NCBI GenBank assembly: GCA_020724225.1
Contig: DYHI01000013.1
Coordinates: 1 to 33,020 of the forward strand
Origin: Candidatus Altimarinus sp.
GTDB lineage: Bacteria; Patescibacteriota; Gracilibacteria; BD1-5; UBA6164
Direction of reading: 5' to 3'
Length of the DNA: 33,020 bases
In this document: piece by piece, positions 26,178-26,587 of the stretch
How positions within the stretch are numbered: the first letter of the stretch is position 1
Layout of the letters: every line of letters begins with the position of its first letter
Made by a program: the position numbers and the translations under genes
The notes under the pieces: generated by a model
What the model was told of the DNA's origin: nothing
The model's database searches: none
Seen by the model: the letters and a program-made list of their open reading frames with translations, nothing else

Positions 26178-26290
26178 AAAAAAGCCCCCGGGCAAGCCCG
26201 GGGGGGTGTGGTAAAACCGACGTTGCGTCGGTCAGGGAGTTTTGGTACACTAACACTTATATATTTCTTATATGGCTAGTGTAAAAAACT
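26178..26290 (-). ncRNA. GC-rich structured transcript/trailer candidate downstream of the tRNA pair
   Basis: minus: ACACTA/TAGTGT hairpin, CCGACG-CAA-CGTCGG hairpin, then CCCCCGGGC-TT-GCCCGGGGGcTTTTTT terminator, in otherwise AT-rich DNA. Confidence 0.45.
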
Positions 26291-26437
26291 TGGCGGGCAT
26301 GGAGGGAATCGAACCCTCAACCTTTACCTTTGACCATGAGGATATTCACTAGGAACCATTACCTAATTACTAGTCTCTCACTATCCACGATGTATTGTGG
26401 AATTCGATAATATTCTTACCACCTGAACTACATGCCC
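26291..26437 (-). tRNA. tRNA interrupted by about 70 nt in the anticodon region; identity uncertain
   Basis: minus: acceptor GGGCATG/CATGCCC, D-arm GTTC-AGGTGGTAA-GAAT, T-arm GAGGG-TTCGATT-CCCTC, encoded GCCA end; anticodon stem TTATC/GGTAA encloses 77 nt instead of 7. Confidence 0.72.
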
Positions 26438-26450
26438 TGTAAAATCTTTG

Positions 26451-26523
26451 TGGAGCTAACTGGATTCGAACCAGTGACCTCTCAGATGCCATCTGAGTGC
26501 TCTGCCCACTGAGCTATAACTCC
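26451..26523 (-). tRNA. tRNA-Ala(GGC)
   Basis: minus GGAGTTA-TA-GCTC-AGTGGGCA-GAGC-A-CTCAG-ATGGCAT-CTGAG-AGGTC-ACTGG-TTCGAAT-CCAGT-TAGCTCC-A; full cloverleaf, CCA not encoded. Confidence 0.95.
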
Positions 26524-26587
26524 ACAAAAAGATTTTACTTATATATATTAATGCTTTTTTATTTATTGTCAAATTTATTTTTTGATT

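Follow-up and report, generated by a model that had tools for sequence, protein, structure and literature searches.

A conserved tRNA-like element with a two-hairpin insert in place of its anticodon loop in Candidatus Altimarinus

The locus and its surroundings

In this study, we analyzed a stretch of 33,020 nucleotides from Candidatus Altimarinus sp. (contig DYHI01000013.1 of assembly GCA_020724225.1, our genome G000; hereafter the window). This chromosomal contig reads well in genetic code 25 (UGA = Gly) and poorly in code 11, and the neighbouring genes on it encode a PP-loop protein, a peptidoglycan-binding protein, an AGOG-type DNA glycosylase, UMPH-1, GrpE and UvrC. At 26437-26291 on the minus strand lies a tRNA-like element of ~147 nt with an insert and an encoded CCA. 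By reading tRNA 3' ends within the same genus, we located a homologue in Candidatus Gracilibacteria isolate STE_160 (G001; L119:1050-1215, on contig C3), where the element is flanked by the same two protein genes. The features of the locus, in the order in which the minus strand reads them, are as follows.

26545-26572, minus strand: promoter-like TTGACA-16-TAATAT upstream of the tRNA/element unit (consensus match; directly before the element in STE_160 too)
26450-26523, minus strand: tRNA with anticodon GGC ('Ala'), upstream of the element (absent from the STE_160 locus)
26291-26437, minus strand: complete tRNA-like element, including the insert and the encoded CCA (Rfam tRNA match; homologue in STE_160)
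26431-26437, minus strand: acceptor stem, 5' strand GGGCAUG (structural alignment with the homologue)
26412-26428, minus strand: D-arm GUUC-AGGUGGUAA-GAAU (structural alignment)
26406-26410, minus strand: anticodon stem, 5' strand UUAUC (structural alignment)
26382-26405, minus strand: 5' hairpin of the insert, UUCCAC...GUGGA (variable; 44 nt in STE_160)
26336-26381, minus strand: second hairpin of the insert, 16S helix 43-like, with the loop-E internal loop CUAGUAAU/GUGAAUA and the conserved AAUGGUU loop
26366-26373, minus strand: CUAGUAAU strand of the 16S helix 43-like internal loop (motif comparison)
26343-26349, minus strand: GUGAAUA strand of the same internal loop (motif comparison)
26329-26335, minus strand: GGUCAAA, the 7 nt preceding the 3' strand of the anticodon stem (GGUAGAG in STE_160; no conserved anticodon)
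26324-26328, minus strand: anticodon stem, 3' strand GGUAA (structural alignment)
26302-26318, minus strand: T-arm GAGGG-UUCGAUU-CCCUC (structural alignment)
26291-26301, minus strand: acceptor 3' strand CAUGCCC, discriminator G73 (A in STE_160) and encoded CCA
26246-26283, minus strand: hairpin downstream of the CCA, UACACUAGC...GUGUUAGUGUA (re-paired with other letters in STE_160; pairs read by eye)
26232-26239, minus strand: single-stranded motif CUCCCUGA between the downstream hairpins
26185-26204, minus strand: rho-independent terminator, 8 G-C pairs and a T run (conserved in STE_160)

In both genomes, the element stands between a promoter-like site and a strong terminator. What follows the CCA is shared as well: first a hairpin, next CUCCCUGA or CCUCCCUGA, and then another hairpin ahead of the terminator. 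This conserved tail (26283-26185, minus strand) may be a separate small RNA from the same transcript. Just upstream of the unit, another small RNA appears to be encoded (26704-26595, minus strand), with promoter-like TTGACA/TATATT (26731-26704), a GUUGUCGUCUCCUCC motif, a terminator of seven G-C pairs (26612-26595), a counterpart in STE_160 (GUUGUCUCCUCC) and sub-threshold Rfam similarity to SorY/SorX-type sRNAs. The upstream tRNA with anticodon GGC has A3-U70 in place of G3:U70 and no encoded CCA; blastn against 24 relatives returned no orthologue, only partial matches to other tRNAs, and its identity as tRNA-Ala is doubtful. Elsewhere in the same genome, a tRNA body of the Glu(CUC) type (CTC in L090 of the relative G002) carries the anticodon CUU (L019:1501-1575; G000:C2:9061), and a divergent tRNA has anticodon CCG and G73 (L027:1501-1577; G000:C40:12191). 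The latter is possibly tied to the CGG reassignment reported in related bacteria.

An interrupted tRNA body conserved by compensatory change

The Rfam tRNA model matched the element with 46.5 bits (E 4.7e-7 over the window) and placed a long insertion within it. ARAGORN missed the element without its intron option and, with that option, proposed a 72-nt intron and the identity 'Leu(CAA)'. All cloverleaf arms and the CCA are present, including a complete D-arm (GUUC/GAAU), a variable region of 5 nt and discriminator G73, and the anticodon stem strands UUAUC and GGUAA are paired across 77 nt (26405-26329). The original prediction had described an intact tRNA body with an insert in the anticodon region, TTATC and GGTAA as a 5-bp anticodon stem, UCA at positions 34-36 with G33 instead of U33, and G73; this description proved correct throughout, and the stem pairs in the homologue as well.

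The homologue has an insert of 95 nt, compared with 77 nt in the window. In a structural alignment of the two sequences, which was drawn up manually in knowledge of the structure, a procedure that favours the pair count, all 30 pairs were kept: 15 were unchanged, 3 had changed on one side, 12 on both sides, and none was broken. In a control, shuffling of one strand yielded a mean of 12.0 pairs and a maximum of 20. Identity between the two sequences was 55% in paired and 69% in unpaired columns. Every stem of the tRNA body (acceptor, D, anticodon and T) shows such changes, as does each of the two stems in the second hairpin of the insert, so that selection acts on the insert and the tRNA body jointly. 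Of the 12 two-sided changes, 7 lie wholly within the 91-nt 3' part, and a MAFFT alignment of this part is gap-free. Since no pair is lost in the syntenic homologue of the second genome, we confirm that the interrupted tRNA body is real and far beyond chance, and this comparison of two sequences makes the element look like a working RNA. The homologue also shows some unusual letters, with C8 for U8, G14 for A14 and an odd D-loop.

Distribution of the element

A pattern search for insert-bearing tRNA genes in 77 genomes of the order revealed no second case, the matches that resembled other interrupted tRNAs being adjacent tRNA pairs or chance. With a looser pattern, the only true cases among 353 genomes of the class were those of the window and STE_160, and a motif search in 36 relatives recovered the same two. 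A scan of 84,980 species genomes again found the place in STE_160, together with two chance matches. Matches in Peribacteria, Paludibacteraceae and viral contigs had no tRNA at the site and were attributed to chance, and phage records gave, among the matches listed, short partial matches only, the annotated ones being to tRNA genes. The genomes known to carry the element in these pattern searches, in which more diverged homologues could be missed, are therefore two. At the same locus of the relatives G003, G004, G005 and G013, the neighbour genes lie together and the element is absent.

The insert and its likeness to 16S rRNA helix 43

The insert is composed of a variable 5' hairpin and a second one, in which CUAGUAAU/GUGAAUA forms the internal loop and AAUGGUU stands at the apex. 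Its unpaired motifs (CUAGUAAU, AAUGGUU, GUGAAUA and CAUGGU) are identical in the two genomes. All 15 letters of CUAGUAAU/GUGAAUA recur in helix 43 of these organisms' 16S genes; the 16S gene of the window's own genome is absent from the assembly, and the genes of relatives were compared instead. When a covariance model was trained on nothing but the two inserts, it matched helix 43 with E values of 0.001-0.0012 in two 16S genes picked by Rfam, and it also matched helix 43 in other 16S genes, those picked by motif. Plain alignment gave a weak result for the STE_160 insert against the 16S gene of STE_160 (32 of 1000 shuffles were as good) and nothing significant relative to shuffles for the insert of the window against that gene. 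The match to helix 43 goes beyond the loop-E core in both sequence and structure (15 shared letters; model E ~0.001), and it rests on the conserved motif and the covariance model. In both RNAs CUAGUAAU/GUGAAUA surrounds loop E, whereas the hairpin of the insert is simple and has a closing stem of its own, with the apical AAUGGUU in place of the rRNA loop.

Within the internal loop lies AGUA/GAA, known as the loop-E or S-turn motif and found in the specifier loops of T-boxes (PMC4695836). Since such loop-E modules recur in unrelated RNAs, T-boxes included (PMC4695836), the likeness of the insert to helix 43 may be convergent.

Decoding capacity

The UCA triplet had led to the suggestion that this gene may be a tRNA-Gly reading UGA, and that a second such gene should be sought. 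We found one: an intact tRNA-Gly(UCA) with U73 lies on contig C5 of the same genome (3' end at C5:7187), as detected by Rfam and by a T-arm/CCA pattern search of that genome. Its sequence is identical in the relatives G003 and G004, and its 3' end also occurs in STE_160. Because of this intact gene, the interrupted one is not needed for reading UGA, and the identity tRNA-Gly(UCA) is not supported for the element. Counted from the 3' side, the triplet at positions 34-36 is UCA in the window and UAG in STE_160, and the discriminator is G73 versus A73; neither is kept between the orthologues.

Two other identities were considered and rejected. The Leu(CAA) reading from the ARAGORN intron mode would require a shifted stem and a long variable arm, which is absent here, and the same mode called the homologue Ala(UGC). 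The isotypes missing from the window's genome (Val and one more) are more likely explained by the Met cluster, which stands at a contig end in that genome; in STE_160, the likely 3' ends of a Val-type tRNA and of one more are seen near this cluster. None of the eight ways of dividing the 7-nt loop gave U33 with a 5-bp anticodon stem in either genome, and the element has no usable anticodon loop, either directly or after splicing.

Possible explanations of the element

On balance, and with moderate confidence, we favour the explanation that the element is a conserved tRNA-like RNA that does not decode and in which a domain of two hairpins has taken over the position of the anticodon loop; it is probably not an intron-bearing tRNA. 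The main alternative, which we consider unlikely, is a tRNA gene with a small anticodon-loop intron of an undescribed kind, whose removal by an equally undescribed enzyme or ribozyme would give a functional tRNA. The full tRNA body with CCA, the position of the insert exactly in the anticodon loop and the structure conserved between the two genomes would all fit such an intron, but the differing triplets and discriminators, the conflicting ARAGORN identities and the fate of the missing isotypes speak against it. In addition, no PF01974 tRNA-splicing endonuclease was found in the window's genome (94.6% complete), STE_160, G004 or G010, whereas four of four archaeal controls were positive. Inserts of 77 and 95 nt are too short for a group I intron, the core of which takes ~200 nt or more, and no Rfam intron model matched at E values up to 10, which agrees with the earlier exclusion of a group I intron. 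To our knowledge, self-splicing introns are the only short anticodon-loop inserts in bacterial tRNAs, and a literature search returned nothing on tRNA introns in Patescibacteria. The spliced intron of the original prediction is thus unsupported, because no junction restores U33 in either genome and no such endonuclease was found. If the insert were spliced after all, bacterial tRNA introns would gain a new class.

It is very improbable that the tRNA scaffold carries a T-box-like or other module for binding tRNA. The S-turn is that of T-box specifier loops (PMC4695836), the letters after GAA are UAU in the window and UAC in STE_160 (both tyrosine codons), and UGGU is complementary to an ACCA end; however, GAAUAU is equally present in helix 43 of the 16S genes of these organisms, and two sequences cannot show codon covariation. 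The element also has neither the apical elements of Stem I nor an antiterminator, and the Rfam T-box model (RF00230) gave no match even at E values up to 10. That a tRNA gene was broken by insertion, or that the element is an assembly artefact, is scarcely credible: the D-loop is odd in STE_160 and other genomes of the genus are without the element, but it occupies the same place in two separate assemblies. Because all 30 pairs are kept, 12 of them by two-sided change, the comparison contradicts both a decaying pseudogene and an assembly error, and the decay in relatives that had been named as a sign of a pseudogene is not seen in STE_160. Finally, the chance that the element is a short or derived tmRNA is close to negligible. 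It shares with tmRNA the tRNA ends and a long insert in the anticodon region, but its D-arm is full and its insert lacks a conserved reading frame, the Rfam tmRNA model (RF00023) did not match it, and ordinary tmRNAs are encoded elsewhere in the genus (STE_160, L118:2279-2741; G004, L120:2882-3346). The tmRNA of STE_160 was missed by ARAGORN and found by Rfam just above the cut-off.

For a non-decoding tRNA-like RNA, the following course could be envisaged. The element would be transcribed from its own promoter, and both ends would be trimmed by the tRNA maturation enzymes (RNase P, and 3' processing to the CCA). The product would then be kept unspliced as a stable RNA of ~147 nt, in which the tRNA body provides a stable scaffold, while the second hairpin of the two-hairpin domain presents a helix 43-like loop-E module. 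Helix 43 is part of the uS7 binding site. The domain is possibly a binding site for a ribosomal protein, and it would most likely be bound by a partner that normally sees this part of the small subunit, with uS7 as the first candidate, or by another RNA. A more specific and rather improbable version is a natural 'tRNA scaffold' RNA whose anticodon loop has given way to a 16S helix 43 mimic that titrates uS7 or a 30S assembly factor; we know of no description of ribosome regulation of this kind. A tRNA body that selection maintains while an rRNA-like domain occupies its anticodon loop would be a natural example of tRNA employed as a stable scaffold, here in the setting of a code-25 lineage with a reduced genome.

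Comparison with known systems

Group I introns occur in the anticodon loop of some bacterial tRNA genes, and the element resembles these genes in having an insert at this site of a tRNA body; it differs in its length (77 or 95 nt), in having no group I core or conserved anticodon, and in offering no junction compatible with U33. Archaeal and eukaryotic tRNA introns, which are cut by a splicing endonuclease, are also short inserts in the anticodon loop, whereas PF01974 was not found in the genomes searched and the insert of the element carries conserved unpaired motifs. Like tmRNA, the element has an acceptor stem, a T-arm and CCA with additional RNA between them; unlike tmRNA, it has a full D-arm, a length of ~147 nt and no tag frame, and a separate tmRNA is present in the genus. 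YrlA-type bacterial Y RNAs combine tRNA mimicry with a second module, and if the element is indeed a stable non-coding RNA, it would share with them tRNA-like arms joined to another domain. However, its cloverleaf is complete with CCA, its extra domain sits in the anticodon loop, and no Rfam Y RNA model matched it. In the engineered tRNA scaffold, foreign RNA is put in the anticodon arm for stable expression. The architecture of the element is the same, but the element is natural and conserved between species.
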